Source: Chrysaora quinquecirrha (Eukaryota > Cnidaria > Scyphozoa > Semaeostomeae > Pelagiidae). From it: a DNA stretch of 64,000 nucleotides. Within the stretch, counting starts at the first letter, position 1. Every line of letters starts with the position of its first letter. Of the stretch, positions 1-63,835 are shown in pieces. Location: contig JACTAT010000291.1 of assembly GCA_014526335.1 (NCBI GenBank), positions 126,996 to 190,995 on the forward strand. The letters run 5' to 3'. The notes beneath the pieces are model-generated. The model was not told the DNA's origin and ran no database searches. It worked only from the letters and a program-made list of their open reading frames with translations. Made by a program: the position numbers and the translations under genes.

Positions 1-769
1 CGCCTGTAGTGCTAGGAGTTTTAAAACTTGTTCTCCGTCTGTAGTCGCAAAACTGTCGGGCATGCCATTAAAGGAGAGTTAAATGCGTAAAGGTTGCTTT
101 ACACTGCAAGTAGATGCTTGGTACTGCAAGATTTCGTCTGTCATTTTACCGAACCTTGGGACCGCACTCTACCCAACCCTACTTCTGCCTTCAAATGATT
201 AACTCAAGTCTTTATTGAGTAGGTATAGCAGAGTGTTTGATTATATATGTTGCTTATATCTGTAATAGTCCCTAATTAGTGTTATTGCAATACGTAAATC
301 TTGTAATCAGAAACAATTTGGATATTATCTTTGCCTAAAGTCCAAATTTTTACTGCCTCCGTACATCACATTGCTTAACATTCAAAGAATGTTGTCATTC
401 TCGCCCAGAAATAATCATCTTGCATGTAGGTGTTTGTAGATCTAGTATCAAAATTGCGAACTCATTTCAAGAGTTTGCGTTATTGGTCTTTCACACTAAG
501 TTAATCGAAAGAAATTTGAATTATCTGGTGAAGTATTGAAGCATCATGTAAAAAACTTTGCTCCCTTTACTAATGGCAAGCGGAGCCAGAAACATCGAAA
601 CACCGGCAATAATTTAGGGCACCGACAAAGGGTGAATAGCTGAAGAAAAGGGCCAGAGTGGAAGATCTAGGTTTCAATTAAATAGACAGTTTGTGGGATA
701 CTTTATTGCGCTATTTATGTCAGTGGAATAGACATCCGCTGTCTGAGCACTCATCCCTTTTCAAACCTA

Positions 770-1488
770 CAGCGTGTTCTTCTAAACCAATTCTTTTTTC
801 GGTAGCCTTCTTTTTCGGAAATGTTTTCCTCGAAGCTATTCTCCTGAAAACGGCAGGTTATGGAGCTATCCAAAACCTTCTGTCGTCATAAGCAGAGAGT
901 CTCCGAGACTTTCAAGAGAGTCTCGGTTTGAAGTTTGAAACAGACTTCAATTTTACTAGTTGCCAGGGAAGACTTAATACCTGAGTCCCAGTTATCGCTC
1001 ATGAGATAGAGGCTAGCACTAGAATGTGTCGTTCAAACTGGCTTACCATGGCATTGGTCCAACATTTCATACTCTCTTATCATGCAAGTCATGCACATGT
1101 TCTAAAACTAACACAAACTAACACAAGTTCTAAACTAACACAAGTTCTAAAACTTTGAATGCTTATAAATTTCTGTGAAATCTGAGCTATACGGGTGTAG
1201 TCATGACGTCACAAGGGCATGGTCAAGAAAAACCATCAAACGGTAGTTGTATGGGGTGTCGGTGTGTTGGAGGAGCGAAAACAAACGACTCAAGCAATAC
1301 GTCTATTGCCAGGATACATTCGGGGTTGTGGAGGAGCGAATGGGTCTGGGATGAGGCAAGCAAGAATTTTGGCGCGAAAATTTTTCAGACTTCCAGAATT
1401 CGTGTCTTTTGAAAATCATGAATTCTGTTTTTGAAAGCCTTATGTTTTCGAAATTCGGAAGGTTTTAGAGGCTAAGAAGAACATGCCC
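770..1488. mobile_element. TIR element, GGGCATGTTC family (left arm, with internal insertion)
   Basis: Ends GCGTGTTCTTCTAAACC and GGCTAAGAAGAACATGCCC. The right-arm copy (61297-61657) is about half as long; the extra roughly 345 bp here sits between two occurrences of TTGCCAGG near 961 and 1309. Short ORFs at 1203-1434 are within it and are not credible genes. Confidence 0.65.
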
Positions 1489-1710
1489 CTAGTTTACATA
1501 CATTCGAATTATATTGTTATATTCTAAATAGTGCTATGTTAATCATCAAGTAAAACTATATATTAAACGTCCCTTGTCTAAGCATCCATTCCAAATTTGA
1601 ATCAAGGTTGCACAGAGTAACCTATGAAATGTCACTGGTGGAGACATCTGATTCTTAATGATTACATGTAATGCTATTTGTAAGTTAGTTGCGAAAATTT
1701 CAATTAATAC

Positions 1711-4700
1711 CTGAGGTGTCCGATCCCAGCCATCACTACAATGAACAATGACGGATAAACGACATCTATCAACAATGTCAGCAATTCGAACAGCTCCAGC
1801 AAGAACTGCCTATGATTTAACAAATAGCTTCATTATTAACATTGGCCATCCAAAGCCTTGTAGCCCTTGAAAGAATCGAGCATGTTAAAGAGTATCAAGT
1901 ATGCGTTACGCCAATTTAAAATCTTTTACGCCATGTATGCTTCAAGCACGATCATTAGCAAATCTGATTGTGCTATTTTGACACCTGCCCCCCCAAAAAA
2001 AAACTCCAAAAATTCTGTCTCGTTTCAGTTGGATTGCCAAGCATGACATCAATTGACGGTTAATGGGCCTAAAATTTCAAGTTCTAGGACCCCTAAACAA
2101 GGTGACGAATTTTTCTTATCGTTCTTGTTCCCACTTTTGAAGCTATAATGCAGCTTTTCCATCAATGTGTAAAAGGAATAATGGCGAGGGAATAAGCTTT
2201 GCTCTCATGATGTAGTAGATAAGTTTTGCTTTTTTGACATCTGCCGCCCAAGAACAGCTCCAAAAATTTTGCAGTTACTTTTCGAGTCGTTTTGTTGGCG
2301 TCCAGCAACCTTGTTTAATAGCAATATCTTCTACGCCCATAACAATGTACAATTAAAAATAAATACTTTCATGAGGTAATATCAGACAACCAAAATACCT
2401 TGATATGTTCTAGCCACCTTGAGGATTCCAGATTGCTAAGAAAGTGAGCATCGTCAATCGAAGGATAACACATATCTCGCAGCTTTCTTAAACTGAATAA
2501 AAACAAAATAGAGTAATGAGAATAATAACATCACTGAGGCGCTTATTTCACTTTTGGGACATAAAGAGGGGCGCTTATTCGAAGGGGTGCTATTTAGACA
2601 TAACACACGCTTCATAACATATGCCGCTTTTTAGATTTTTTACTAGCTCTTCGAGAGCCAATGGAGAGGATACCATCATGCTCACAGGTATTAAAAGTTA
2701 GAGTTTAGAATTTACTGCTGAAATACCTTATAGAGCAAGGTCAACAACATCACATAAGGCTTGTCTTAGAAATAGCAATCTTCTAATGTGGTGAAATGTG
2801 CTTTATTTATGCAATAGTGTCATTCGAAATCGCTTAAGTAAATACCTTTTCCACTAAGAAACATACCTTTCTCTCATGACGTGGATATTTTGTATATCAA
2901 GGAAAACTAATTCAGTATTTGGATAATTATCGCTGTCTTCATAACCACCACCTTTGGCCTTGAATAAAGTTACAAAAAATCATTAGAACCAAAAGGTATT
3001 TTGCTGGAATGGTACTGCCAGAAGTACAACACAGAGATCAAATACGAAACATACGATAATAATCTAACGCTGGATCACGTCTGCATCTTAAAAAAAGGAT
3101 GAACGAAGCCGTTTGAATTATGTCTCACGCAATTTCTTTTGCTAAAACTAAAAAAAGCTGCTTATTTTGGCTTTTGTATCTTACTTCGCTTAGGCCAACG
3201 TAAAGACCAGATAAATTAAATAGAAAAAAGTCTCCCATTCTTAAGTAAGTCTCCCATTCTCTACTTCTTAACACCCGTAAGTCTCCTCAAATCCTTCCTG
3301 TCCCGTGATACGAACAAAGCTACTTCATTTGCAAGACTTTTATTTAGAGAAGGAACAACAAAAAGGTCTTTCTCTTATATTACCTGGTTCGCAACAGCAT
3401 TTATTTTAGGTCTTGCATCCATGATATACAGTTTATGCCACTGCGGATTTGCATGAAGAATTGCCTTCAAAAAATAATGTTTTCAAAGTAAATCCTATGT
3501 AATGAAGACCCTATGTTATGAAAAAGTAGGAAATCAGAGAGCGGTTCTATTCGTAACAGAGATCAATTAAACTGCACCCAAGATACTTCGGCCTGACTGT
3601 ATTCTTCTGTGAACAAACTTCTCGCATGAGTGAGAGAGCAGCGTAGTGTAATGGTTAGCACTTGCGCCGTTTATGCTAGAGTGCCATGGTTCAAATGGAA
3701 TTGGATGCACAAATCTCAAGGTGTTAAACCCTTGCTTTCTGTTATTCGGATGATGGCCTAAAATGGCAGACACGCCTGAAAATTAATTGGTACGTGAAGT
3801 AAATCAAAAGACCCGATGGCAGTGACAACACATAGTGACAATGAAGAGACGATCTGACGTAAATGTTCAATAATTGACTGTAGAGCGAATGAGGTCTTCA
3901 GGATTAGCCACAACAGCCAGCAATCAAATGCCATATTGCCGGGTTCTGGAAAACCGAGGGGTAATTCACTCCTTGAAAATCTCGTACACCTTTGCTGGAA
4001 GTCCTATTGTTTTCTCGGAAATCCCTTGAAAGTCCTTTTGTTTAAATGGAAATCTCGTACGCCTTTTTGCAGAGTGAAATGCCCCTCGTGGAAAACAACA
4101 AGGACAAGATGGAAGTGTGTATGATTTCAAAAACAAGTTTTCGTCTAGCTAAGGCTACTCAGTCGATTTCTAAGACCTTACTCAGACCGTGATCTATATT
4201 TCGTGAAATGTAATATGTCTGAAGAAATTCATATGAAAGACGGGAATTCAAGGAATTTTCTTTGAATTTTCTGTGCTTCTACAAAACCGAGTTTAGAAGT
4301 GATCAAGTTTCAACCCTAAATGTTCCCCAGGCTTTGCACAAATTTCTTAACAAGAATATGATAAAGACAACAAGACACAATAATAAGACATAAAAATAAC
4401 AAGACTCTACTAGTTAGAAAATCATGAAACTCAAGGTAGCTATGTTACCTGTATGTATTTTTCATCATCCTTATTTCTTTTTATTCCACCAACACCATTA
4501 TTTGGTTGACTGCAGCGAGTGATTGATGCACTGTTATTAGGATGCAGCCATGATAAGACCTGGCAAGTATGAAATTAAATAAACTGGTGCATTTCTATTG
4601 CAGTTTCTATAAATGGGGAAAAATTCCTGAATTTACACAAATTTCCTCCTTTAGAAATAAAAATACCTTTTTCTCACGAAACATAGTAAAATTTCAATTC

Positions 4701-7700
4701 TGGTTTTATTTCTATATTTTGTAACTAACTAAAAGGGCCTCTAAACTTATTCTAAAATACGTTTAAAATGCCCTGCTGTTTTGAAAAAGAAGAAACAATT
4801 TACGCATTCTATATAGAATTCGCTTACAAGAAAGTGTAAAAGTTTTGTCGAACAAACGCTACACGAGGAAAGCAGAAAATAGACTCTTCCGATCTTATTA
4901 AACTGAAACTCTTTGTTTGAGCAAGCACAAAACATGAAAAATTTTGCTTTGCTTTCCTGTAAGTTTACGTTTTCAGGAAGATATAGGTATACATCAGTCT
5001 TCCGTGACTTTTGGAAGGTGATTCATGTGAATTCAGTTTCAAGAAACATTGAGAAAATCTGCAAATCGTTTCCTAAAATAATATAAGCTTTTGTGGCAAT
5101 TCAGTTGTTATCTTCTCTAAAAAACATTGCTTTGCAACCGTAAAATGGTGTACTTGACCAAAGCCAAAGAAATGAAAGTTACTTTAACTTACAGGTATTC
5201 TTGAACGACTTCTGAAGCTAGCAACTTTCACTACTTCTTCATCACTTGCTGATGAGGGAACACCAAGCTTAAAAAAAATAGAAATGGTCTTTATCATTTT
5301 TCATTTGCAAAGATGAATGGAGTCTTGCAAGAATAGACAAAAAGTTAGACAAAGACATCATTAAGTGAATATAAATTGCAAAAATCGCCTCAAATAAAAA
5401 CTATACAATTTGCACTATCAATGGAACTGAAAAGAGATATTTAAGAAGTTGAAAGGTATACTGGATAATCGAGACGTCGAATAATGTAAGCTGCACACCG
5501 ACACTTGGAATACTTGGGTTGACAGAGGCGAGTTGCTTGAATCCAAGACCAGGTTGGCATTTCACGAGAAAAGCTACAAATGCATTTGCGGCATCGTTTG
5601 CGGTTTTCTCATATGCCAACATTCTTTATTTTACGTTGGTTTTACAATAGCATTAGCATATTTAATGATGCAGCAAATAAATACCAATCAATAATAATAG
5701 GTATTGCACACAGTGCTTAGTATATTACTACGATTTAGTATTTTGACATTTTAAGATACAGGCTGTTCAGAAAAAAAGGAACACGCTTTAGAAATTGTTT
5801 TTATTTGCGAACCGTAGCTTCAAGGCCAATAAACTTTTCTCATAATACTTACTGTGTACATACACTCTTATGAGTAAAAGGATAAGCTTTCACATTTCAT
5901 CTTCACAAGAATATGCTGTAATTAATATCATTGGTAAATAAAAGCATGTGCACAAACTTAATGCAGATTTCATGCAATTGAAGATTTTCTGTTGCTGGGA
6001 TAAGTGACAGTAAGGGTTTATTGACACAACCATTGATTACTTTTAGGCCAAGGGTTTGAAAAATGATTGATTTAGACAGACAAAACTGCTTAAAATATTG
6101 TTTATGGTGAAGTGTGCTTTTTGTGAAGTACACATTGACTGTTCTTTGTGTTGGTTAAAAAAATACTGTCAAAAGTTTTGTTTCTTCCTAATGTTATTCA
6201 TGAAGTTAAGATTTACAAAGTGATGTCAGTATAATTCTCATTTCTTCAAAAACATGAGCACTAAATTTGATGCTCAGAAATTTAATTTTGACTTTGGTAC
6301 GAAGGCTTCTTTTCCGGGTTCCTTTTATTCGGAACACCCTGTATAAATAGGATTAAGTATAAGCTAAATAATACAAATTTGCTGACTTTGGAATAATACC
6401 GAGAGCGTAGGATAAAATCCACACTAGTCCCATGCCTTGATGTATACGTTCTGGTTGGTTATTGATCTTGGACCAACAGTGGATGGGGGAATTATCGAAG
6501 AAAAATTAGGGAATGTAGGGCATATGTCTGCAAAAAGGTTCATTGCTTAAGTACCGGTAATACTGAAATAAGCTAGCTATATAAGCAGAGAAAATTTACT
6601 TTTGGTCATCCAATGTCCAATGTTCAGGGACTGGCCGAGCATACTACTACTTTCTGCTTGATCAGGGGATAAGACAAAAATATGAATAGAATATAAGGTT
6701 CAACTATAAAAATTGCGAGCAATAGCAGAAACATTTTGGACATACTGATAGAAGTTTTACTCGTCTGACATTCCTCAGAGTATAAATGTCACAGACAGAC
6801 CGCAACAGCTGAGACATTTTGAAGTTTCATACAACTCAAAGATGACATATGAAAATAATGAAAAATAGATATGAACATTTACCACAGCTGGATATGTATC
6901 ACACAGTGAATAATCTCGATTGACCTCAGTAACTCGCCAGCAATCTGTTGGTAAACCCTGAAACAGAATGCAGACTCTATTACAAGGCACTGACAAATAT
7001 TAATGCTCTAATCGTGATATTCATAAGATCGTAAATATGGTGAGATTATCGTAGACGTATTATCTTTCAGGCCGGGCTAAAGTATCAACTTGGCCTGATG
7101 TCAAAGCACTGGATATTTGCTAAAGTTTTATATGAGTGACTAGCCCTTGCCCCGAGGCGCGCTGCGCGCGCCTCGGGTCGGGCTTTTGCGCTCCGCGGGT
7201 CACTTTGGACCCCCGCCTTGGAAGGGTTGTTTCTGAACGGGGTCATTGTAAATTACAAATCAATTTGATGAGAGGACACGATCACTGCTAGAAACGTATG
7301 AGGCAAAACAGTTTCAGTGGTGTCTCATGTTGCCCTTAGCGTAGAAGAAAGCCCCACTGTTATACGAAGTGGACGTGAATGTAGACGGGAAATTGAGTTT
7401 GATTGTATACATGGTTTGGGGAAGTATTGTATCACCGAGGTATTGCATCAACTGTTTGAAGCTTTTAGACTGGTTAGTCTTAACTTAGCTTCAATGACTG
7501 TCTGCACGAATGGCTTAGTCTTGAAGTGGAATGAAGCTTTAGCGTTTACAGTGCTTTAAGTGGAGAAGGACGTTGGTGTCCGTGAATCATGGACGGACGC
7601 AGTCCTTTTACGTTCTATACATGGCAGGTAGAAGGCACTGTTAGTGACCGTAACGATACTACAGGGTGGCCCAAAAAAAGGGACCCCCTAACTAAATAAT

Positions 7701-10700
7701 TTATAAATAATTTATTCGTAAGTTGGAATTTCATGAAATTAATATTACATGATATTCAACTTAAGTGAGATATATCATGTAAATATCATGAGGATATGGG
7801 TTAGTATCTCTGAATAAATTGACTTTAAAACTTTACAGTCCAAAAACGTACTGTAACAAAATATGCAACTTTATACTCTTACGTAATCCTTACGCAACAA
7901 AACAGAAAAATCAATAACTCATTCTTTCAGTGAAATAATATTCAAAGTGTCTTCAATCCTGCTCAATACACTTCTCTAATATGACTGACCATACATTAAT
8001 GGTCGAGACAATTTTACTCTGGGATAATTATTCGCCTTCACGAACGATTGCAGTACAGTACGCAATGATGGAATATAAACAGCTGGTTTTGGACATCATG
8101 AATTTCATTTCCCATTGTGCCGAGATGGAAGCTCTTATCACTAACATATTTCTACACGATAGCGCACTTGACTTAAATATTGCCGTGTATAAATTTATTA
8201 AAATTACTCCTTGGGAAAATTTATTCAGAAACTATTTACCTAAGGGGTCTCTTTTTGGGCCACCCTGTACTTTTCAAGAGACCTTCGTATGGAAGGAGAT
8301 TAGTGACAATGAGGTGACATGGCACCGGTAAATCTGCGACGCTGGAAAGTGCTGTTGATGTAGAGGAAACCTTCGTATTAGCTGCTCTGTGACCAGTAGG
8401 AATGTCAGAAATACTGATCTGGCAGGGGCATCATGGGGTGCGCCCACTCACTGTAGCAGGATGTTTTCGTTCAAAGAAACAAACTAAGATTTTTTTCCTT
8501 CGAATATCGAGAAAACAAACAGAAATTATACACAACCAAGCTATACGAACAGTTGACGAATTTGTTCGCCTAGGCTGACTGTTAACAGAACTATTGCCCT
8601 GCCTTTCTGTCCCGGAGAAGGGATAAAGAAAGGGTCCCCGAAAGTGTTCGTTCAAATAAACGAACCAAGAATTGTTTCTTCGAATATCGAAAAAAAGGGG
8701 GCATAAGCCGCATAAGTAATATTTGTAATTGCCCTGCCTTTCAGTTGTAGAGGAGGGATTAGGAAAGGGAATCCAAATGTACAGAAATGTCAAAGTTTCG
8801 TGCAGCGAAGCAAGTCGTGAATTCTGTAGCAAGCCAAATGTAGGGAAGTGTCAAACGGGCAAAAGTAAAATTAGTAATTGCAATGTGATGTGAGATCGAC
8901 ATGCAATGTGGATATATGAATTCGAGCTTTCTGTTCTGCTTGTCTTTTCGTCTTAATGAACAGAACAATTGTAGCCTTTGGCCATGAGGGCATGTTTTGC
9001 CTTTACTATTTTCATAAGCAGAGCTGTTGCCCAAACCCCCGAATGTGTTCTTTCAAAAAAAACCAAGAATGTATTCCTTTGAAAACAGAAAAAACAAACA
9101 GAAATTATACACAACCAAGCTACACGAATGATACGAATAGTAAAAGAATTTTTTCGCTAAAGCTGACTGTAAACAGAACTATTGTCCTGCCTTTCAGTCC
9201 TGGGGAAGGGTTAAGGAAAGGGTCCCCGAATGTGTTCGTTCAAAGAAAAAAACCAAGAATTTTCTCCTTTGAATATCGTAAAACGAACAGAAATTATACA
9301 CAACCAAGCAAAAGAATAATACTAATAGCTAAAGGACTTTTCGCTAAAGCTGATTGTAAAAACAGAACTAATGCCCTGTCTTTCAGTATTGAAGTAGGGA
9401 TTAGGAAAGGGGATTATTCCCGCTGTGAAAACAACAGACCCATTGTTCTTCATGGCACGAAATTCTAGATCAAAGAAGGGTGAGCCCCAATTACCCTAGA
9501 AACGGGAGCACGTTTGCAAAAAATGACTTCAAACTCTACGCCTACCCCACAGGCGGCAACTTGAGGTGCAAGCGCCAGCACCGTAGCTTCTACGGTAAGA
9601 GAGGAGTTCGCGTGACAAAATGGTGTCATAATCCCCTTACTACTTTAGTATATAAGAAACGCAACTCGCGAGGGATGAACGCAACTTGCTTTTTTAACCC
9701 AGGTTGAAATTTTGTTCGGGTTGTGTGTGATTGTTTCCACCATGTAAACCCAAATTTAGTTCAACAAGGTTGAGTTTCATTGTCAAAGTCTCATAAGAAG
9801 CTACAGGAGACAATATTGTTATGTTATCTTAACGCGAGTTGAAAAACACCCATTGAATGCAAATAAAATTTGAAAAAAGCATCTAGCGTGAATTTAAAAC
9901 TGAGTTGAGCTTTCTCGTATAATGCCTCAAACAAAGTAAGAAATATAGCATCGTACAGTTCTCTTGTGTAATGCTCGTGTAAGGCCTCATACAAAATGTA
10001 ATGCTCGTCTAAGGCCTGACACAAAATGTCGTGAGATGCTCGTGTCAAGCCTCATATAAAGAAAGGGTTGGAAATCAATAATTTGATATTATTAAATATA
10101 TACCTGCCGGTTGTACTCTCTTCGAGGATCATAAATATCCCAGCCATTCACACGGAACTCATCGTGGTAATCGAATGCAAAAAAATTCTACAATAAAAGA
10201 AAAATAAAAATTGTGGAATCAACACCACCATTATAGACCGGCTTCAGGTGGGGTCAAGTGCCACTCGAGGAGGTCATTAATGTCATAGTGATTTTTCGAT
10301 AGCATTTCACATGGACTTTCAAAAAAAGTTTGGTAAACGGTCGTTTTTTGCTGCGTTCGTGAAATACGGGGGTCAGAAAACCAGGGGGTCGACATAAACA
10401 AAAATATTGACAGAGAATTTTGGGCAACATTCTAGCGAACTGGGTAACCGGAATTTTAAAGTAGGTTTGGACTCTTTGGTGGTCGGTGGTCATTTTAAGA
10501 CTTGGGAACATTCTGGCAAATCAATGGTTGTGACGTCATCGATGACGTAGAAAAGTTACGGTCAGTGAAAATCTGACTTTTCAATTTTGTGTTTTTAATG
10601 ATATGGTCGGAAAGAACATCTCAAATGGAGCAAAAAATTATACAATACCAATTCGATTTGGCTTAATACTCAGAATTTATTATGATTAGAAATTTGTGTG

Positions 10701-13700
10701 ACGTCATCAAAACGCAAAACTGATATTTTGAGTCTTAACGTTTCGTGCACAAATTTTTCTTTTGATGTGTTCAGCGTTACTTTTAGGATAAAAGCATCAT
10801 GTTCTCTGTCACTTACGCTAATTTTTGTCATTTCAAACCTTTAATTACGAAGAATTCTCGTGATTTCTAATGCGATGCAGCTAGGGTTCCGAACTACTAT
10901 GAATGTTGAAAAAGATGAAAAGCTTGAAACGTTTTCTGCTTACTTTCTCCGAGAATGGTAATATGATTGAGCTGGATAGAGCGAAGTACTAAAAAGTGGA
11001 TCTCAAGGTAATCATATACAAAAAATATGGACACTGCTTACAAAGGTTGAACAGCCGTATTTTGATACGTGGTTAGAGGGAACAGTCACTTGGTTAGGAA
11101 GAAATGCTACAAGAAACAGGGGAACAGCCATGGAGGGTTGAGTTTCATTGCATAGATGAAACTCCATAACACCAATAGGTATGTCCATTTCAGTCAACAA
11201 GATCGGCGAAAGACAGGAGAAAATTGCGCGGCTACTTGCCAGCTACTAGCGATTGCTGAAATGAACTGGAGCGAATCTTAGCGAAACCAATCGACCGATT
11301 CAGTTTGAGTTCAATATTTCGGCAGCAAACTTTGTACCAGAATAGGAGCCACAAGTCAGATAATATCTAAATCTGCGAACTTACCCTATAAATCCTATTT
11401 AGCCTTTTTCTTGCGTTTTTTCATTATTATCATTCAGCGCTCGTCTCTGCTATTATTGGAGAACTCACAGTGGCTTTTCCCACAAAGCCGCACTTACAGA
11501 GTTATACATTTGTCAACGTAACAACTTGCGAAATGCGTCTCTCACCTTGCTACTCTAAAAAGTTAATCAAAATTCTTTGCAAAAGTCAATTCCAATAGCC
11601 TATCGGTTACTGTTATCTTGTATAAATCTCTGTATTATGCCTATTAAGACTGATGAAAAGTGGCACACTTCGTACTTTGACACGAAAGTGAACGGATTTT
11701 TCTGTGTTTAAGGTGAGCCGTAGTATTTGAATTCCTCTCCACTCCACCACCAAGCCTTGTTTCAAACTAGCCATATCCGCTGACGATAACCGCCTTCATC
11801 TACACCTACACCTGTGCCTATGCCTTCGCCTACTCCTATGCCTTCATCTACACCTACACCTGTGCCTATGTCATCGCTTATGCCTTTGCCTATGCCTTCA
11901 CCTATAGCTGTGCCTATACCATTGCCTATGCCTACACCTTTATCTGTGCCTTAGCCTACATCTATGCCTACATCTACACCGACGCCTGTGCCTATGCCTT
12001 CGCCTACACTAATGCCTACATCTCACCTAAACCTGTACCTAAGGCTTGTCCGATGCCTATGCCGTCATCTACACACACGCCTGTGCCTATGCCTTTGCCT
12101 ATGCCTTTGCCTACATCTCACCTACGCCTGTGCCTTCGCCTTCGCCTATGCCTTTGCCTACACCTATACCTATCCCTTAGCCTAGACCTATGCCTTCATC
12201 TACACCTACACTTGTTCCTATGCCTTCGCCTATGCCTTTGTCTACAACTTATCAACATAGGTGTCTGTCGTCTTCCCGAGCATTTACGGCTACATAAATC
12301 AAATAGAAGACCATGGTCATAAAAATTTAATTCGCTCTATCTAGCTCAATCATATTACCATTCTCAGGGAAAGTAAGCAGAAAATGTTTTATCTTTTTCA
12401 TCTTCTTCAACATTCATAGTAGTTCGGAACCCTAGCTGCATCGCAATAGAAATTACGAGCATTCTTCGTAATTTAAGGTTTGAAATGACAAAAATTAGCG
12501 TAAGTGACCGAGAACATGATGCTTTTATCCTAAAAGTAACGCTGAACACATTAAAAGAAAGATTTATGCACGAAACGGTTAAGACTCAAAATATCAGTTT
12601 TGCGTTTTGATGACGTCACGCACTTCAAATCCTAATAACTTCTGAGTATTAAGCCAAATCGAATTGGTGTTTTATAATTTTTTGCTCCATTTGAGATGTT
12701 CTTTCCGACCATATCATTAAAAACACAAAATTGAAAAGTCAGATTTTCACTGACCGTAACTTTTCTACGTCATCGATGACGTCACAACCATTGATTTGCC
12801 AGAATGTTCCCAAGTCTTAAAATGACCACCGACCACCAAAGAGTCCAAACCTACTTTAAAATTCCGGTTACCCAGTTCGCTAGAATGTTGCCCAAAATTC
12901 TCTGTCAATATTTTTGTTTATGTCGACCCCCTGGTTTTCTGACCCCCGTATTTCACGAACGCAGCAAAAAACGACCGTTTACCAAACTTTTTTTGAAAGT
13001 CCATGTGAAATGCTATCGAAAAATCACTATGACATTAATGACATCCTTGAGTGGCACTTGACCCCACCTGAAGCCGGTCTATTAGTAGTCTCAACCTTTG
13101 GAATACGAATAATGCTACAGTATTTTGTTGTGGTTGTTAGTATGGAAAAGGGCGATTTCGTTGGGTTTCCTGGCTACATCAATACTGGTTTCAAGAATGT
13201 ATATTAGTCGATAAGTCTTTTACGATAAAATGAGCTTGTTATATCAGCAAAGGCAAGAAAATTCTTTAACTTTACTAAGCAAAGTATGGACATAAAAAAC
13301 GAAGGCTACCTACTGCAAAGGAGCGCCGAAGGCTACCTAATGCAAAATTTAGTGATAATAGCGCATTTATAAACAGTTACATACGTTTGGCAACGTTTAA
13401 CTGTTGTCCAAGCATAAGCAATACACACTTTGGCCGTAAATTGGGTTGCTTGAAATCTTCAGTTACTTTCTAAATAATCGACCACTAGGCCAAGTTTCAT
13501 TCAATGTTTTTTAAGATCAGAGGCACTTACCATTCCTGATGATATCGGAAACGCATGGGTCTAAAAAAAGAAGAGAAATAAATTTTCATCCTAACAGAAC
13601 AATCGGTCAAATGCAAAAAAGTACATATACAATTCTTTTCGCACAAAGTATCTTGCAAGTATCTCACTGCTCACTCTCTTCACGTGAAATGACATCTGTC

Positions 13701-18159: not shown

Positions 18160-18208
18160 TTCTTTTCTTGTTTTATCTTCAAATGATCACCTTGCTCTTT
18201 GTGAAGTC
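18160..18208 (-). other. 5'UTR part of MTMR exon 1 (left arm)
   Basis: Mirror of 46825-46873. The acceptor CAG lies immediately above 18208 and the sequence leads into the ATG at 18159. Confidence 0.55.
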
Positions 18209-21218: not shown

Positions 21219-21378
21219 TTATTCACCATGCCACCAATGTCTTGGGATGACATCAACAGCTTCTTATATACTACTCCCAACAATAAATTTATAATTTTAG
21301 CCATTATCACGCTTTTTACAAAAATATCAATATTATTTTAAAGGACAGGGTTGAGAATTTTTAATAAAAACAATTGAG

Positions 21379-33668: not shown

Positions 33669-33754
33669 AAGTTTTTGCTAGCAAGGAAAATGTAAAATAT
33701 ACCTTTTAACACAGTTGAGAGTTAAATAAATGATAATGTTAACGGTAATTGCAC

Positions 33755-43445: not shown

Positions 43446-43615
43446 CTCAATTGTTTTTATTAAAAATTCTCAACCCTTTCCTTTAAAATAATATTGATAT
43501 TTTTGTAAAAAGCGTGATAATGGCTAAAATTATAAATTTATTGTTAGGAGTAGTATATAAGAAGCTGTTGATGTCATCCCAAGTAATTGGTGGCATAGTG
43601 AGTAACCGTATATCT

Positions 43616-44103
43616 TCGAAAGCGCCTTTCACTTGAACGGATACGCATCCCGTTCTTATGAACGCTTCCTAGTCTACTTAGATGCCTAATTGCTGGGGGG
43701 AGGTCGGAATAGGCGGGGGGTTAGAACTACCGTCAGGATCTAATTGGCGGGGGGTCAGAGTAAACGGGGGGTTCAGACTTTGCTTGACAAACTTTGTATG
43801 AAAACTGCTGAAACGCAAAGCGAGGAGCCCTATTGTGCTTATAGGCTAAGGAAATCCAAAGTTCTATAAAAAAAATTGAGTGTACAAGTGAACTTTCAAA
43901 CCAAGAACGTCAAAGTTAGTTTAGTAAAATATATCAACATCAATATTAATGCAAACTTAATAAGCGGAGGGTCCTTACAAGAGCAGAGGGGTTGGAAATT
44001 TTTCAAAAAATTAATTAGCTGAGGGGACGGCAATTAGGCACCTAAGAGTAAATGCCTCTTCCGAAATCGATTCGCCGGGCGCGTCCATTCGAAGACATAT
44101 GGT
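43616..44103. mobile_element. TIR element, CCGTATGTCTTCGAA family (right arm)
   Basis: Counterpart of 20742-21218, with ends CCGTATATCTTCGAAAG and CATTCGAAGACATATGG. It lies in the SFMBT-MTMR intergenic region. Confidence 0.65.
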
Positions 44104-46824: not shown

Positions 46825-46873
46825 GACTTCACAAAGAGCAAGGTGATCATTTGAAGATAAAACAAGAAAAGAA
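46825..46873 (+). other. 5'UTR part of MTMR exon 1 (right arm)
   Basis: A pyrimidine-rich acceptor ending in CAG at 46824 precedes 49 noncoding bases before the ATG. The left arm has the same arrangement (acceptor just above 18208). A separate noncoding first exon is therefore expected in 43446-46800, but I could not locate it. Confidence 0.6.
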
Positions 46874-52800: not shown

Positions 52801-55800
52801 TAAAAAGTACACCTTATATTTTGTTTAGACAAAGATGGACGGATTTTCTCACTTGTTCCTCTGATGTATGGCAGGTTCATAGAACATTTATGCTCCTCTT
52901 TGTCAGCCTCAGTATTCTGTCTGGGCTTTGAGATTTTTCTCGTGACCTTGCGTATGTCTTCTTGTTCATAATCATTGGCCTTTAGAACGCTTGAGATCCT
53001 TTTGTACTCATTATCTAGATCATCAAGATTGCTCGTGATTGATTTTGCTCTGTTGAAGAGAGAAGATATGACACTGTTTTTGACACTGTCTAAGTGATGC
53101 GAGTTCGCATTCAGGTATTGGTCAGTGTGAATGGGCTTCCTGTACACTGATACGCTTAGACTTTTATTGGCATTCCGTTGAATCTCAGTGTCGAGGAAGG
53201 CTAGTTTTCCATCATTCTCTACCTCTGTAGTGAATTTCAATTTCACATGTAGGGAATTGATGTGCTTATAGAAATCTTCCATCTTGTCCCTCTTCATAAT
53301 CACGAACACATCATCTACATATCTCTCCCATACTTTTGGTTTCTCAATGTATGAATCAAGGGCAAAAGATTCTTTTTCTTGCATAAAAATCTCAGCAACA
53401 ACAGAAGAGGCAGGTTTTCCCATTGCTACTCCATCTGTTTGTGAGATAAAGTTAAGTCGAACTCTATCATCTCAATCAACTTATCCACAGGTATAGGAGT
53501 TTTTTTGTTTAGATCTCTGTCTTTTCGGAGTAAATCACTTATGATTCTCAAAGAGTCCTTAATAGGCACGTTGGTGTATAGCGAGTTGACATCGAAAGAT
53601 ATCATCATTTCATCGTCTTCTATCTCAACATTACGGATGAATTCCGAAAATTCTTTTGAGTTCTTTGCATGTCCCCTTTTCTTGATGTAGTGTTTCAAGA
53701 TTTCCGCAATATACTTTGAGAGGTTTTCTAGTGGTGTACCACTACAGGACACTATAGGTCTGATAGGAAAACCCTCTTTGTGTATTTTGGGAAGTCCATA
53801 GAAACGTGGAGCATGAGAATCGGAAGGTTTGATATTCCGATATGTTTCATCTGAAATTATTTTCATGTCATGTAAGCCTTTAATAAGCTTCAGACCTTGG
53901 CGCTTAATTTTGTTAGTTGGATCGCATTTCAGATATTCATAAGGGCCATTCTCGATGTGCTGGGTGCACTTTTGAATATAGTCCGAGCTGTTGAGAAGAA
54001 CAGTCGCTCGCCCCTTGTCAGCAGATAGGATCTTAATGCTATTATCTTTCCTTAGATCACTCAAAGCCTTCCTTTCTTTTCTAGAAATGTTATCTTTAGG
54101 AAGAGCAGAATTCGTTAGGATGGTGCATATTTCTGCTCTTACGCAGGCTCCATCACTTACCGACATGGTATCTGTTTTTTCGAGATAATCTAATTTTCCT
54201 TCCACTTCTGCTATTATATCCTTTTTGGGGATATAAGTGGGCGCAAGACCGAAGTTCAAACCTCGGGACAGAAGAGATTTTTCGGACGATGAGAGATCTT
54301 TGCTGGATAGGTTAATGATCCAGCGATCTTTGTCTACCTCTATGCCATTGTCATTATTGGTAGTGTTATTTCTTTCAAGAAGGTTGTTGTATTTTCTCAC
54401 ATGTCTTTCCCTTATTTGAGACATTGTCTTATCACAACGGGCCTTCTGAATTGATTGCACTCTTTCAAAATGTTCAGTTGAGAGAGTTCGTTTAATTTCC
54501 ACTTCGAGATCGTTTATTGAAGTCTTAATTCGATCTCTAATGCAGTGGTTCAAATGGATTCTCTCTTGCAATTGAAGTTTACTGGTACATCTCGCAGTCT
54601 TGACCTTGCACCTAGGTCTAAATGAGGCATTATACGAGAAACCTCGACTCAATTTGAAATTCGCGCCGGGTGCTTTTTTCGAATTTTATTTGCAATGGGT
54701 GTTTTTCAACTCGCGTTAAGATAACATTTTCATATTGTCTCCTGTAGCTTCTTATGAGACTTGGACGATGAAACTAAACCTTTTTGAAATAAGTTTGGGT
54801 TTACATGGTGGAAAAAATCACACACCACCCGAACAAAATTTAACCTGAGTTGAAAAAGCAAGCTGCGTTCATCCCTATGTAAAACTTTTGCAATACCCAG
54901 TGCTTTGATCACAGGCTATGTTGATACTTAAACCTTGGCGTGAATTTCATCCTAAGCTGAGTTTTTTATGTTGATTTTGTTGATTATACGTGATTTTTGC
55001 TATGGTGTCTTGAAGTGTTGATTCTTACTGATTCTTAGTGATGACTTGATTCTTAAGATTTTCTTTGGTGCTTTATTTGTTATTGCAAACAGTCGTCTAA
55101 AGTATCATATATGAATAAATGCCTACATATATACAGGGTGCCCCAAAAAAGGGACCCCCTTGGGTAAATATTTTCTGAAGAATTTTTCTCAAGGAGGAAT
55201 TCTATAAAATTTATACCAGGAAATATTCAACTCAAGTACGATGTCGTGTAGAAATATTTTGCTGATAAGAGCTTCCATCTTGGCGCGATTAGACATTGTA
55301 TTCAGAATGTCCAAAAACCAGCTGTTTATATTCCATCATTGCGTACTGCAATCGTGTGTGAAGGGGAATCATTATCCCAATGCATAATTGTCATGACCAT
55401 TAATTCGTGGTCAGTCATATTAGAAAAGTGTATTGAGCAGGATGGAGGACATATGAACATTTGAACATATCAGTTGACTGAAAGAATGAGTTATTGATTT
55501 TTCCGTTTCGTTGCCTAAGGATAAAAAGTTGCATATTTTGTAACAGTATGTTTTTGGATAGAAAAGTTTTAAAGTCGATTTATTCATATACGCTAACCCA
55601 TATCATCATATCTCCAAGAAATATCTCACTTGAGTTGAATAAAATGTAGTATAAATTTCGTGAAATTCCTACTTGAGAATAAATTATTTATGAATTATTA
55701 AGCTTGGGGGTCCCTTTTTTGGGCCACCCTATATAATACTTCAGAAAGATATTTTGAATAAAACACCTTTGTGAGAAGAAACGTAGATGATAAAGCCAAA

Positions 55801-58800
55801 AGCTAGATTTCACAAAAGCATAAATATTTGTAAACAGAGGCTATCATTCTGTGAACTCAACGTAATTTGTCTTCATTAAAGATCACCGTCTGGTAGAACC
55901 GTGTTACGAAATCATGCGATGATCTTAGGCTTATTACTTGAGTCGAAGTTAGTGCAATCGAGTTCAACTGCTGGACGCTCAACCAGTCTGAGCGATTTCG
56001 GTGTGGTGTTAGTCTCGGCTTGATGAGCGATAGCTGATCCTCAGGTAGTAACTAAGTCTACGATGATCTTACCATATTTACGATCTTATGAATATCAGGG
56101 ATAGAGCGTTGATAATTACCAATGATTTGTAATAGAATCTGCATTCTGTTTCAGGGTTTACCAACAGATTGCTGGCGAGTAACCGAAGTCAATCGAGATT
56201 ATTCATTGTGTGATACATATCCAGCTGTGGTAAATTTTCATGTTTTTTTTTATTATTTTCATACATCATCTTTGAGTTGTGCGAAACTTCAAAATGTCTC
56301 AGCTGTTGCGGTCTGTTTCTGACGTTTATACTCTGAGGAGTGGCAAACGAAAATTTTTAATGTCCAAAATGTTTCTGCTATTGCCCGCAATTTTTAAAGT
56401 TAAACCTTGTATATTCTATTTATATTTTTGTCTTTTTATCTCCTGATCAAGCAGAAAATCGTAGTTTGCTCGGTCAACCCCTGAGAAGGACTTTATATGA
56501 CCAAAAGTAAATTTTCTCTGCTTATGTAGCTTATTTCAGTATATAATTCTTCTATAATTCCCCCACCCACTGTTAGTCTAAGATAAATGAGCAACCAGAA
56601 CGTATATATCAAGGCATGGAATGGTGTGAATTTTGTCTTATGCTATCGGTATTATTCCATCAATCTGGTCAACCCAAAAACGCCTTTGTGTGCAGTGCAG
56701 CTTAATTATTAAACGTCTCCATTATCCAGTATACCTTTCAATATTTTTAAGTGGTATAATATTGTGAGAAACAGCCGAAAAACTGAGAAGTGCGACCTAC
56801 GTACCTGGCATCACACTGTGGCGAATATTCATACAGAGCAAGCTTTCTGTATTGTAGCTATGCAATCCTTTTGAATGGATGGTAGAACTGTCCGAGAGCT
56901 AAAAACTAAACGAGGGTGGGCAGCAGCAAAACATTTAGCAAGTGCCTTTTTTACTTGGTTTTTCGAATCGCAACGAGACGTTGCCTATCAAAGGCATTTT
57001 TAGGTAAACAGGGCATTTTTGCGTACCATACATTCCTTTCATTCATTCCTCTCCATTCACCTTTCAAACGATTTAGTATAAAGTGATTTTTTGTTTTTTA
57101 GCTTGGAGTTCCCTCGTCAGCAAGTGATGAAGAAGTAGTGAAAGTCGCTAGTTTCAGAAGTCGTTCAAGAATACCTGTAAGTTAAAGTAACTTTCATTGT
57201 TGTGATTAAAACTTGGTTCTGATGTTCGTGTAGCAGTTTCTTTAATTCTGGTCAAACACATCATTTCACAATTTCGAAAACTGTCTGTACTCGCAATTGC
57301 CGCAAATCGTTACATTCCTATAGCAATAGACTTCCAGACCTCCTCAATTTTCTTGAACTTGATTCACATTATCACCATTCATAAGTCATCGAGGACTGCT
57401 GCATATATCTTTTCTAGAGCATAAAATTACAAGAATGACTGCAGGAAATCAAAGCAAATTATTCACATTTTGTTCTTACTTAAACATAGAGTTTTACTTT
57501 AAGAAATTCGAAAATGTCTCTCGAATGCATTTATATAGGCTACAATTAAGATTATATAGGCTACAACTCGCTCTTGCGTCAATCTAATGGCCTAAAGTTC
57601 CTTCGGCCTTCTCTTGCTTTCGTGCTGGTAAATAAAAGTCGTCTAAGCAGCTTTTATACTGCAAACTACTGAAAATTTCTCTGACTTTAAGTCACACGGG
57701 GCTTTTTCCGGAAGATACTTTGAGCTCTTATAGCAAGCAGAAGAATGGAAATTATAGTGAAAAGAAAAACACTGCGGCTTTTAACTTGTTAACAACTTTC
57801 ACTAACTAACATTTGATTTAAAAGTCTCAGAATAAGTTTAGAGACCCTTTAAGTTGTGTGGTAAAAAATGTTTGGTAAAGAAATAAATTTTTATTTCTAA
57901 AGGGAGGAAATTGCGTAAATTCAGGAATTTTTCCCCATTTATTGAAACTGCAATAGAAATGCACCAGTTTATTTAATTTCATACTTGCCAGGTCTTATCA
58001 TGGCTGCACCCCAATAACAGTGCATCAATCACTCGCTGCAGTCAACCAAATAATGGTGTTGGTGGAATTAAAAGAAATAAGGATGATGAAAAATACATAC
58101 AGGTAACATAGCTACCTTGAGTTTCATGATTTTCTAACTAGTGGAGTCTTGTTATTTTTGTGTCTTATTATTGTGTCTTGTTGTCTTTATCATATTCTTG
58201 TTAAGAAATTTGTGCAAACTAGTCTGGATGAAACTTCAGTTTCCCAAGGAACGATATATTAAGCCTGGGGAACATTTAGGGTTGAAACTTGATCACTTCT
58301 AAACTCGGTTTTGTAGAAGCACAGAAAATTCAAAGAAAATTCCTTGAATTCCCGTCTTTCATATGAATTTCTTCAGACATATTATATTTCACGAAATACA
58401 GATCACGGTCTGAGTAAGGTCTTAGAAATCGACTGAATAGCCTTAGCTAGAGCAAAGCTTGTTTTTTTAAATCATACGCACTTCTTGTCCTTGTTGTTTT
58501 CCAGTATCCGGCAATATTGCATTTCATTGCTAGCTGTTGTGGCTAATCCTGAAGACCTCATTCGCTCTACAGTCAATTGTTGAAATTTACGTCAGGTCGT
58601 CTCGTCATTGTCACTGTGTGTTGTCATACGTACCAATTAATTTTCAGGCGGGTCTGCCATTTTATGCTCTCATCCGTTTCACGGAAAGCAAGGTTTTAAC
58701 ACCTTGAGATTTGTGCTGCCCATCCTCCATTTGAGTCATGGACCTCGAACTTGAACCGCGCAAGTGCTAACCATTACACTACGCTGCTCTCTCACTCATG

Positions 58801-61800
58801 CAGAAGTTTATTCTCAAAAGAAATACAGTCAGCTCAAAGTATCTTGGGTGCAGTTTTATTGATCTCTGATACGAATGGGACCACTCTCTGATTTCATATT
58901 TTTGTCATAACATAGGGTTTTCATTACGTGGGATTTACTTTGAAAACATTATTTTTTGAAGGCAATTCTTCATGCAAATCCGCAGTGGCATAAACTGTAT
59001 ATCATGGATGCAAGACCAAAAATCAATGCTGTTGCAAACCAGGTAACATAAAAGAAAGACCTTTATGGTGTTCCTTCTCTAGATAAAAATCTTGCAAAGG
59101 AATTAGCTTTGACTAAAAGAACCGTATCTTAAAACTAGGTTTGATAATGAAGCAAGTACCTTTAAACTAGGTTTTCTCTTTTTAATTTAAGACATTACAA
59201 GCATAAAGGAGTTCATATCATTGAGTTATACAAAACTTCGAAATTGCAATAATCATTTTCGGGCATAATTAAAAGCTTTTTTCGTCTGACACTCCTCAGA
59301 GTATGAACTTCAGAAAAAGACCGAAACAATGAACTAAGGCGGAATTTAGCATCTTTGTATAAATTCCGCCTTAGATCATTGTTTCGGTCTGTTTCTGACG
59401 TTCATACTCTGAGGAGAATCAGACGAAGAAAGCTTTGAAGTATGCCCGAAAATTATTCCGCTGTTTATCGCAATTTTGAGTTCGTATCACGGGAAAGGAA
59501 GGATTTGAGGAGACTTACGGATGTTAAGAAATAGAGAATGGGAGACTTACTTAAGAATGGACTTTTTTCTATTTAATTTATCTGGTCTTTACGTTGGCCT
59601 AAGCGAAGTAAGGCACAACAACGAAAATAAGCAGCTCTTTCTTAACAAAGAAATTGTGTGAGACATAATTTAAACGGCTTCGTTCATCCTGTTTTTAAGA
59701 TGCAGACTTCATTCATTGTGAGATTATTGCCGTATGTTTCGTATTTGATCTCTGTGTTGTACTTCTGGCAGTATCATTCCAGCAAAATACCTTTTAGTTC
59801 TAATGATTTTTTTGTAACTCTACTTAAGGCCAAAGGTGGTGGTTATGAAGACAGCGATAATTATCCAAATACTGAATTAGTTTTCCTTGATATACAAAAT
59901 ATCCACGTCATGAGAGAAAGGTATGTTTCTTAGTGGAAAAGGTATTTACTTAAGCGATTTCGAATGACACTATTGCATAAATAAAGCACATTTCACCACA
60001 TTAGAAGATTGCTATTTCTAAGACAAGCCTTATGTGATGTTGTTGACCTTGCTCCATAAGGTATTTCAGCAGTAAATTCTAAACTCTAACTTTTAATACC
60101 TGTGAGGGTGATGGTATCCTGTCCAGTGGCTCTCGAAGAGCTATTAAAAAATCTTGCGGCATATGTTATGAAACGTGGGTTATGTCTTAATAGCACCCCC
60201 TCGAATAAGCGCCCCTCTTTTTGTTCCATGAGTGAAATAAGCGCCTCAGTGATGTTATTATTCTCAAACCTCTTTTTGTTGTTTATTCAGTTTAAGAAAG
60301 CTGCGAGATATGTGTTACCCTTCGATTGATGATGCTCACTTCCTTAGCAATTTGGAATCCTCAAGGTGGCTAGAACATATCAAGGTATTTTGGTTGTCTG
60401 ATATTACCTCATGAGAGTAGACCATTGTATTTATTTTTAGTTGTATATTGTTACGGGCGTAGAAGATATTGCTATTAAACTGAGTTGCTGGACGCTAACA
60501 AAAAGACTATAAAAGTAACTGCAAAGTTTTTGGAGCTGTTCTGGGGCGGAAAATGTCAAAAAAGCAAAACTTATGTACCCTCGCCTTGAATGCACTAGAA
60601 CAAATTGCTTAAATTATACATTGATAGAAATACTGCATTATAGCATCAGAAGTGGAAGCAAGAATGATAAGAAAAATTCTTCACCTTGTTTAGGGGTCCT
60701 AGAACTTGAAAATTTAGGCCCATTAACCGTCAATTGTTGTCATGTTTGGCAATCCAACAGAAACGAGGCAAAATTTTTGGAGCTTTTTTTGGCTGTAGAT
60801 GTCAAAAAAACAAAATCGGATTTAGTATAGCGTACAAGGTTTTATACGAGCGTAACGCATACTTGATACTCTTTACCTACTTGATTCTTTCAAGAGCTGC
60901 AAAGCGTTGAATGGCTATTGTTAATAATGAAGCTCTTTGTTAAATTATAGGCAGTTCTTGCTGGAGCTGTTCGCATTGCTGACATTGTGGATAGATGTCG
61001 TTTATCCGTCATTGTTCATTGTAGTGATGGCTGGGACCGCACACCTCAGGTATTAATTGAAATTTTCGCAACCAACTTGCAAATAGCATTACATAAAATC
61101 ATTAAAAATCAGATGTCTCCACCTGTGACATGTCATAGGTTACTCTGCACAACCTTGATTCAAACTTGGAATGGTTGCTTAGACAACGTAGCTACGTTAA
61201 GTAAAGGAAAGATAGAGTTTTATCTGATGATTTAACATAATCTCCTTTACACACTATTTAGAATAACACAAGATAAGTCTAATTTATGTAAACTAAGGGC
61301 GTGTTCTTTTTTACCTTAAAAGCCTTCCGAATTTCGAAAACAGAAGGCTTTCAAAAACAGAATTCATATTTTCAAGGAACATGAATTCTGGAAATCTGAA
61401 AGTTTTCAAGCCAAAATTCTTGCTTGCCTCGTCCCCAGACCCATTCGTGGAATATATCCTGGCAACTTGTAAAATGGACGTCTCTCTCGGGCTTCAAACC
61501 GTGAATCTCTCGAAAGTCTCGGAAACTTTCTGCTTTTGATGACAGAAGGTTTTGGATAGCTCAAAAACCTGCCGTTTTCAGAAGAATGGCTTCGAGCAAA
61601 ACCCATTCCGAAAAGGAAGGCTACAGAAAAATGAATTGGTTTAAAGGAACATGCCCTATGTTTAATATGGGGCTGGTTGCTCAGACAGCGAGCGTCTATT
61701 CCATTGACGTAAATAGCGCAATAAAGTAGCCGACAAACTGTCTATTTATCTGAAAGCCAGATCTTCCAGTCCGGCACTGTTTTCCAGCTATTCACCCTTC

Positions 61801-63835
61801 GTCTGTGCCCTAAATTATTACCAGTGTTTCTTTGAAGAACTAAACGTTTTTCGTTCTGTCCATGTTTCTGGCTCCGCGTGCCAGTAGTAAAGGCAACATA
61901 AATTTTTAAGTGATGATTTAATAAAGTCTACTTCACTCGCTATTTTGATAAGATAGTTCAAGACAATCAAGGAAATCTCTTTCAATGAACTCAGTGAGAA
62001 AGGCCAACGACGCAAACTCCTGTAATGAGTTCGCAATTTTGATACAAGATCTACAAACACCTACATGCAAGATGATTATTTCTGGGCGAGAATGACAACA
62101 TTCTTTGAATGTTAAGCAATGTGATGTACGATGTCGATAGAAATGTTGATTGTAGGCAAAGTTCATGAGCAAATTGTTTCTGAATACAAGATTAGGTGTT
62201 GCAATAACACTAATTGGAGACAGTTACAGATAAAAGCAACATGTATAATCAAACATTGTGCTATACCTTGTCATAAGAGACTAGAGTTAATCATTTGAAG
62301 ACAGAAGTAGAGTGCGGCTCCAAGGCTCTGTAAAATAACAGGCGAATGCTTTCAATACTAAGCATCAACTTGCAGTGTAAAGCAACCTTAACTCATTTAC
62401 CTTGCATGTTATGGCATGCCTGACAGTTTTGTAACTGCAGACGGAGAACAAGTTTTAAAACTCCTAGCACTACAGGCGAGATCAGATAATCTCAGATTGA
62501 TTCGTGAATTTGTCTTGTCCCTGATTCAATTAAAGTTAAAGTTTTATTAACTTGAATGTTTTGATTATTTTTAGCTTACGTCGATGGCGATGCTCTTACT
62601 GGATCCATATTATCGCACAATAGAAGGTTTCGAGGTATGCTTGATACACGTCGCTTCAGACTATTTCACTTGTATATGAATTCAGCAACATCTGCTTAAC
62701 TGTGTTGGTAACTAAGCTTTTACCAGTCTGCCCTTTGTATACTACAGGGTGTTCCAATAAAAAGGAACCCGCTTTAGAAATCGCTTTTAGTAGCGAACCG
62801 TAGCTTCAAGGCCAATACAATTTTGTCATATTACTAACTGTGTATACACACTCTCGTGAGTAATAGGATGCGTCTTTTCATATTTCATCTTCCCAAAAAT
62901 ATACTGTAATGAATTTCATTGATGAATAAAGCATGTGTAAATAAACTTTATGCACATTTCATGCAATTGAGGTTTTCTGGTGTTGAAATAAGTTACAGTA
63001 AGGGTTTATTGATACGACCACTGGTTAGTTCAGGTCATGGGTTTGAAAAATGATTGATTTAGAAAACAAAATTCTAGAAAACATTGTTTAAGACGAGTTG
63101 TGCTTTTTGAAGTGGCTACATATTTGACTGTTCCTTGTGTTGACAAAAAAAAATATTGTGCCGAAACTTTTGTTTCTTCCTAGTGTTATTCATGCAGTAT
63201 ATCATTATAAAGAGATGTTTTCGTAATTCTTCTTCCTTCAAAAACATGTCTGCCAAATTTCATGCTCAAAAATTAATTTTTGACTTAAGTACGAAGGTTT
63301 CTTTACCGGGTTCCTTTTTTGGAACACCCTGTACTTGTCCATTTGCTTTTGGTTATTTTGAACAATTTCGAATTTGGGACTTTCTGTGACTCATGACTAG
63401 ACTGTTGGTTTCAGTTCTTCATTGCCATTCATTTCTAAATATAGCAATTAGAACTAATCTCAATGATGATTTAAAGCTCGTGTTAAATTTGTTATTTTTA
63501 AGTCTTTCCTTTAAGACCCTGCCGATTGTGTTCTGGTATTTCTATATACCCAAAAAAGAATGTGAATTCTTTCATGGAGGAAAACGTCTCTTTCACGCCT
63601 TCTTTGCTATTTGAGCGCTCCGTAGTTTTCTTGCTTCATAACCATGTTGATGATGCAATCTTCTGAAAATTTCAATTTCTTTGCTTTAGTAGCTTTATTA
63701 CAAAACTTAATTTTGTTGTATCAGCTACACAAGTTCGTTTTCTTTACTGCATTAATTTCTTACACAGAATAAAAACTTTATTTTCAGGTTTTGATTGAGA
63801 AAGAGTGGTGCAGCTTTGGACACAAGTTTTCACGG
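46874..63835 (+). CDS. MTMR1/2: Myotubularin-related phosphatase MTMR1/2, 3' partial (right arm)
   Basis: Sixteen exons: 46874-46963, 48226-48295, 48439-48530, 49644-49751, 49986-50057, 51260-51289, 52125-52208, 56155-56229, 57102-57176, 57992-58102, 58962-59042, 59829-59920, 60291-60384, 60951-61049, 62575-62634, 63788-63835. They give 427 codons in one frame and continue beyond the window. Residues 1-40 are acidic; GRAM-PH spans about 55-150; the inactive-to-active phosphatase fold starts near 155. The P-loop HCSDGWDRT places Cys382 and Arg388 as the CX5R pair, so this is a catalytically competent family member. Conserved stretches such as [20 protein letters not shown] and the [11 protein letters not shown] block match MTMR1/MTMR2 rather than MTMR3/4 or 6-8. 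Family activity: removal of the D3 phosphate from PI3P and PI(3,5)P2 on endosomes. A 5'UTR acceptor precedes exon 1 (exon starts 46825); the upstream noncoding exon was not found. Intron 7 holds a Penelope-like insertion on the opposite strand. Confidence 0.94.
47145..48083. mobile_element. Mutator-like foldback element with 10-bp TSD (right arm)
   Basis: 939 bp counterpart of 16981-17888, flanked by AACATAATGC at 47135-47144 and 48084-48093, the reverse complement of the left-arm duplication. The terminal minisatellites (about 47160-47285 and 47970-48065) differ in unit number from the left copy. It lies in MTMR intron 1. Confidence 0.8.
50580..51169. mobile_element. pogo/Tigger-like non-autonomous element, right arm only
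   Basis: 590 bp with inverted ends CAGTTGACATCCGCTA and its complement, each flanked by TA (50578-50579 and 51170-51171). The subterminal sequence repeats TCGAACATTCGCT..CTCGAAC several times in both orientations, as in Tigger/pogo MITEs. No transposase. It lies in MTMR intron 5. Confidence 0.85.
51395..51756. mobile_element. hAT-like MITE, right arm only
   Basis: 362 bp with termini TAGCCTGCGTGCAG and CTGCACGCAGGCTA, and 8-bp flanks CCAAAATG / CCAAAGTG (51387-51394, 51757-51764; one mismatch). The left arm near 13430 has one CCAAAGTG and no element. An 8-bp duplication suggests hAT; no transposase. Confidence 0.75.
52612..52788 (-). pseudogene. Remnant of PLE endonuclease C-terminus
   Basis: In a different frame from the RT, the minus strand reads [19 protein letters not shown] followed by a short tail and a TGA. 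This resembles the region C-terminal to the GIY-YIG core in PLEs, where an NW..R..KE.I pattern is common. An internal deletion appears to have joined the RT end directly to this tail. Family assignment of so short a piece is inference. Confidence 0.5.
52779..54618 (-). pseudogene. PLE reverse transcriptase, frameshifted
   Basis: Two adjacent minus-strand reading frames, 54618 to 53426 and 53423 to 52779, together cover the PLE RT fingers, palm and thumb. The shift falls just before the TDGVAMGKP segment (about 53430-53460), between catalytic motif A and the YVDD motif. The second frame ends soon after the [15 protein letters not shown] stretch. In complete PLEs a GIY-YIG endonuclease follows; here its catalytic part is missing. 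The copy is non-autonomous unless the frameshift is a sequencing error. Confidence 0.88.
54890..56060. other. Non-homologous intron block, right arm
   Basis: MTMR intron 7 segment with no match to the left arm, where 7055-9665 occupies the same place. It contains the MITE 55134-55731; the rest shows nothing recognisable. Confidence 0.6.
55134..55731. mobile_element. mariner-type MITE, CAGGGTGGCCC family (right arm)
   Basis: 598 bp with ends CAGGGTGCCCCAAAAAAGGG and AGGGTGGCCC, TA on both sides (55132-55133, 55732-55733). Same family as 7662-8267 and in the same MTMR intron, but at a different site. Confidence 0.8.
58650..58800 (-). repeat. tRNA-derived SINE fragment (right arm)
   Basis: Reverse complement of 3627-3775, with the same A-box-like GTAGTGTAATGGTTAGCAC. 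The middle part differs (GCGCGGTTCAAGTTCGAGG). Confidence 0.65.
59283..59427. repeat. Hairpin with TATACTCTGAGGAG ends
   Basis: TCGTCTGACACTCCTCAGAG and its complement close a hairpin around AAGGCGGAATTTAGC / TAAATTCCGCCTTAG. Half-copies of the end (GACGTTTATACTCTGAGGAG) occur at 6763-6806, 22062-22108 and 56306-56352. Confidence 0.65.
61297..61657. mobile_element. TIR element, GGGCATGTTC family (right arm)
   Basis: 361 bp with ends GGGCGTGTTCTTTTTTACC and TTTAAAGGAACATGCCC. Largely self-complementary inside. It lies in MTMR intron 14. Confidence 0.65.
62745..63331. mobile_element. MITE, CAGGGTGTTCC family (right)
   Basis: 587 bp with inverted ends CAGGGTGTTCCAATAAAAAG and TTGGAACACCCTG, flanked by TA (62743-62744, 63332-63333). 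It lies in MTMR intron 15, beyond the palindrome boundary. Confidence 0.82.

Follow-up and report, generated by a model that had tools for sequence, protein, structure and literature searches.

The window, by which we mean the whole stretch of 64,000 nucleotides that was analysed, contained two collinear copies of one pair of genes, a myotubularin-related gene (Mtmr) and an Sfmbt/MBTD1-like gene (Sfmbt), arranged in mirror order around an assembly gap. We consider the copies, with a probability of about 0.85, to be two uncollapsed haplotypes of a single Mtmr-Sfmbt locus that were scaffolded head to head by the assembly. Left uncorrected, such a join would double two genes, invent an inversion or palindrome, and could be miscounted as a gene duplication. 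If the copies are an allele pair, the local difference between the haplotypes would be about 6%, with patches of 0-20%, in a medusozoan; were about 6% typical of the genome as a whole, the animal would stand among hyperdiverse species.

BLAST analysis of the whole window gave an inverted collinear match that ran from the pair 1 and 62478 to the pair 30839 and 34256, and the single N run in the window was exactly 500 long. The alignment chain of the arms consisted of 19 blocks with 21,847 ungapped columns and 93.97% identity, with unmatched stretches between the blocks. At E values up to 1e-20 over such a length, a chance origin of these matches would not be credible. The arm spans of 30.8 kb (arm 1) and 28.2 kb (arm 2) are lower bounds, because the alignment begins at base 1 of the window and arm 2 continues into Mtmr exons; beyond 62478, two more myotubularin exon matches were found in arm 2 between 62575 and 63829. 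The two copies were collinear without rearrangement. An inverted repeat of 28-31 kb with a 500-N centre, carrying the same two genes in mirror order, had been proposed by the sequence-only reading, and both claims were borne out, the former including its coordinates (collinear match and N run) and the latter by an identical order of the Sfmbt and Mtmr exons in both arms. The same reading had the arms meeting at a placeholder gap. Indeed, the arms met solely across the assembly gap, and the homology extended to its edge. In arm 2, homology to arm 1 set in at the second base (34256, matching 30839), and contig 1 went 2.9 kb further, so that neither a spacer nor an inner breakpoint is present in contiguous sequence. 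No breakpoint of the repeat was visible in the window, the inner end being the gap and the outer end lying beyond the window edge.

Table 1 Features of the window (coordinates are those of the window; strand as + or -, a dot where none applies).
Feature	Position	Strand	Remarks
Arm 1	1..30839	+	Partner is arm 2; homology touches the left window edge and probably goes on
Arm 2	34256..62478	-	Matches arm 1 in reverse complement
Inner end of contig 1, without counterpart in arm 2	30840..33754	+	2,915 bases; 2 further Sfmbt exon matches
Placeholder gap between two contigs	33755..34254	.	500 N
Sfmbt/MBTD1-like gene, copy 1	21379..32571	-	Four MBT repeats and SLED (Pfam)
Sfmbt/MBTD1-like gene, copy 2	34554..43445	+	Starts near residue 318 of P0001 and is truncated by the gap
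Myotubularin-related (MTMR1/2-like) gene, copy 1	1711..16627	-	Later exons would be located beyond the left window edge
Myotubularin-related (MTMR1/2-like) gene, copy 2	48435..63829	+	
2,853-bp insertion private to arm 1	10230..13082	.	Inverted ends of about 755 bp, 96% identical; target duplication not clear
134-bp insertion private to arm 1	3955..4088	.	Bounded by inverted ends; the 8-bp sequence TGGAAAAC is duplicated at the target
2,237-bp insertion private to arm 2	52386..54622	-	Reverse-transcriptase-type protein; flanked by the 6-bp duplication GCCTCA
361-bp insertion private to arm 2	51396..51756	.	Bounded by inverted ends; the 9-bp target duplication contains a single mismatch
Substitution-free tract, 1,048 aligned columns (indels ignored)	26981..28028	+	Partner 37898-36841

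The transcription of both genes was directed away from the centre in both arms. The best protein matches of Sfmbt were the EukProt protein P0001 (66%) and the Rhopilema esculentum protein P0002 (69%), the Rhopilema relative being named "MBT domain-containing protein 1-like isoform X2"; a Hydra vulgaris relative (52%) was named "scm-like with four MBT domains protein 2 isoform X1". The protein evidence points to a medusozoan cnidarian as the source. The closest full-length relatives carry a SAM domain, and the C-terminal part of Sfmbt aligned to these SAM-bearing relatives, although Pfam did not show a SAM domain in the matching open frame. Ten open frames were scanned against Pfam and six matched; no match was obtained for the other four, namely this SAM-region frame, the one preceding the first MBT repeat, and the two frames of the retroelement. 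For Mtmr, the identity was indicated by a Pfam match and by the best PDB matches of the active-site exon, which were MTMR1 and MTMR2 structures. A query that we take to be the human MTMR2 sequence also gave collinear tblastn matches to this gene.

The unpartnered end of contig 1 contained Sfmbt exon matches at about 31423-31695 and 32440-32571 on the minus strand. The first 190 residues of P0001 gave no credible match within the window (best E 0.25), although with this query from another species a weakly conserved exon could escape. The Cys-rich part of these residues is well conserved in the Rhopilema protein. Since the 5' exons were not found and copy 2 begins only at about residue 318, both Sfmbt copies run into the gap. 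Judged from these matches, a centre of 500 bases could not hold what the two copies lack, if both are complete.

Coding sequences were compared over 20 exon segments (2,991 nt), ten per gene, and were 97.99% identical (Sfmbt, 98.42%; Mtmr, 97.01%), close to the value of about 98-99% claimed earlier. Because tblastn matches set the limits of the segments, some intron bases may be contained in a few of them; the two Sfmbt exons present only in arm 1 were left out, and one arm-2 segment was placed through 24 bases that match arm 1 exactly. The segments differed by 51 synonymous and 9 non-synonymous changes, giving a dS of 0.083, a dN of 0.0038, and a ratio of 0.046, and no internal stop was found in either arm. 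According to the part of PMC8270832 concerned with them, OctA allele pairs of the barnacle Balanus improvisus, each pair from one of four individual adults, have a dS of 0.061-0.12, a dN of 0.0048-0.0069, and a dN/dS of 0.042-0.11. In this comparison with one gene, the dS and dN/dS of the two arms were inside the range, whereas the dN was slightly below it.

Substitutions averaged 6.0% over all aligned columns and were distributed unevenly, ranging from 0 to 20.2% per 500 columns (chi2 880, df 43; 44 blocks, each of 500 columns except the final one with 347). The rate was 3.9% inward of position 14495 versus 10.7% outward of it, in the outer 14 kb, and over 15.1-18.6 kb the arms were very much alike (0.2-1.0% per 500 columns). 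The longest substitution-free run was 1,048 columns, versus a maximum of 195 in 500 simulations with a uniform rate. A single duplication followed by even divergence without exchange was thereby ruled out, the uneven rates and the 1,048-column run both being at odds with it. Within this run exons and introns were alike unsubstituted, and both flanks differed by several percent. From its sequence, the run would represent either a recent shared segment or a conversion tract. As regards gene conversion, the overall identity of the arms was 94%, and some tracts differed by 0-1%; however, such tracts fit haplotypes too. The mosaic is thus consistent with recombining haplotypes of differing coalescence age and also with real arms that undergo gene conversion, a point that counts against the haplotype explanation.

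Between the arms, 29 unmatched stretches or indels of at least 20 bp were counted, and the junctions of nine were read directly. Three of these nine had target duplications of 6-9 bp, the empty site being preserved intact in the opposite arm, one further junction showed a 2-bp TA overlap, and the remaining five, including that of the 2,853-bp element, were without a clear duplication. For the junctions read (9 of 29), the differing transposon content and presence/absence insertions asserted from the sequence were thus found, with private insertions in both arms. That insertions with a target duplication and an empty site opposite occur in both arms counts for haplotypes. The arm-2 retroelement of 2,237 bp is putatively Penelope-like. 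Its coding region (52782-54685, minus strand) contained two overlapping open frames of 419 and 230 codons in differing frames, and hence this copy looks frameshifted. The interior of the 2,853-bp element (about 11792-12246) was a degenerate array of hexamers of the CCTATG/CCTACA type.

How the join could have arisen may be outlined as follows. The two contigs would represent the two haplotypes of a very heterozygous medusozoan, presumably assembled separately because of their difference of about 6% and their many insertions. Both would have broken in the 5' part of Sfmbt, within about 3 kb of one place. A scaffolder, probably of the Hi-C type, would then have set the homologous ends adjacent, with one contig flipped and a fixed 500-N spacer between them. 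When allelic contigs break near the same place and their neighbourhoods match, a contact-based scaffolder that ignores heterozygous overlaps can presumably join the ends. In our analysis the 500 Ns are read as a placeholder, and 500 Ns between contigs have been reported by one 3D-DNA project in the part of PMC10320752 describing its assembly. As stated in part of PMC7203741 (purge_dups), where heterozygosity is high, which applies to most insects and marine animals, haplotigs and overlaps remain among the primary contigs, and such overlaps are, to the knowledge of its authors, not handled by Hi-C scaffolders such as SALSA. Artificial palindromes can arise by erroneous scaffolding, according to a passage of PMC7953838.

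The sequence-only reading had put forward either haplotypes joined in assembly or a real palindrome, and its lean toward the former is supported, indirectly, by an Sfmbt gene cut at the gap on both sides, the lack of a spacer or breakpoint in contiguous sequence, the mosaic divergence, and values of dN and dS in or near those of the barnacle OctA allele pairs. Several values nevertheless count against allelism. The 6% mean exceeds the heterozygosity of Aurelia coerulea, 2.08% by k-mers (one medusozoan figure, taken from part of PMC13243523), the 10.7% of the outer 14 kb is high for alleles, and the dN lies just below the barnacle OctA range as given in the portion of PMC8270832 cited above. 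In favour of allelism stand the neutral diversities cited in the same portion, 8% for Ciona savignyi and 16% for Caenorhabditis brenneri.

The strongest rival, which we regard as improbable though worth weighing, is a real inverted segmental duplication: a palindrome of a Polycomb-type gene (Sfmbt) and a myotubularin gene whose two arms, of an age sufficient for a divergence of 6%, would both be functional, with patchy gene conversion, independent gain of transposons on each side, and an unassembled centre of more than 500 bases. The mirror order is as in true palindromes, the near-identical tracts could be conversion tracts, and palindromes of Botryllus schlosseri were judged real in the part of PMC12448946 that treats them. 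Assembly of a real palindrome centre is difficult as well, so contig ends at that place prove little alone. On the other hand, no breakpoint or spacer was seen in contiguous sequence, the centre must conceal the 5' exons of Sfmbt and, for copy 2, a further 2.9 kb or so if both copies are complete, and gene conversion is needed as an extra assumption. The absence of internal stops from the 20 exon segments and their dN/dS of 0.046 count against it too, although a pair of functional duplicates would give the same picture.

A much smaller chance is given to contigs from different individuals or cryptic species that were pooled, or to homeologous chromosomes of a polyploid, scaffolded together. 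The dS of 0.083 and the 10.7% of the outer arm are high for one diploid animal and would suit such an origin, but the stretches of 0.2-1.0% over 15.1-18.6 kb speak against two well-separated species. Hardly any weight falls on a fold-back artefact of library preparation (an amplification chimera or a missed adapter, with a molecule read as its own inverted copy), for although such artefacts yield palindromic reads, as described for Pacasus in part of PMC6218980, the copies would be near-identical with all insertions common to both, and the 6% divergence of the arms and the private insertions with target duplications rule it out.

Among known systems, the head-to-head haplotypes that we favour resemble the haplotypic duplication described in part of PMC7203741 in that collinear divergent copies, each at a contig end, lie on one scaffold; they differ in that the copies are here head to head and not dovetailed. 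Such duplication is recognised by purge_dups from read depth. The palindromes of the 2013 assembly of Adineta vaga (PMC5916493 and PMC7953838, in the sections on them) likewise show homologous genes mirrored along a single scaffold, whereas the present case, in a cnidarian, is limited to two genes and a single gap junction. In the relevant section of PMC5916493, palindromes were recovered in that A. vaga assembly and none was detected in A. ricciae, and it is noted that some collinearity breaks may be scaffolding errors, true differences being left possible. The sections of PMC5916493 and PMC7953838 in question do not declare the A. vaga palindromes false outright. The Botryllus schlosseri palindromes, as presented in the part of PMC12448946 mentioned above, also consist of blocks in mirror order, in a marine animal of very high heterozygosity (3.63% by k-mers); in contrast to the present pair of genes, the block there comprises more than 50 genes, and it was judged real after checks of read depth, duplicated BUSCO genes, and structural errors.

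A description of the locus was not found in the literature searched by general terms (titles and the beginnings of abstracts). The window gave no match to Rfam at gathering thresholds and no gene in a tRNA scan, and the block at 14.5-19.0 kb had no match in a phage collection. Arrays of a 10-bp unit (TGGGTTCAGG / CCCACCTGAA) were present in both arms, at 16987-17872 and 47161-48063, as two opposed clusters within the longest of the highly similar blocks. In addition, a direct repeat of about 600 bases (5757-6343 and 62743-63333, 81% identical) was observed outside the mirror register and is probably a dispersed element.
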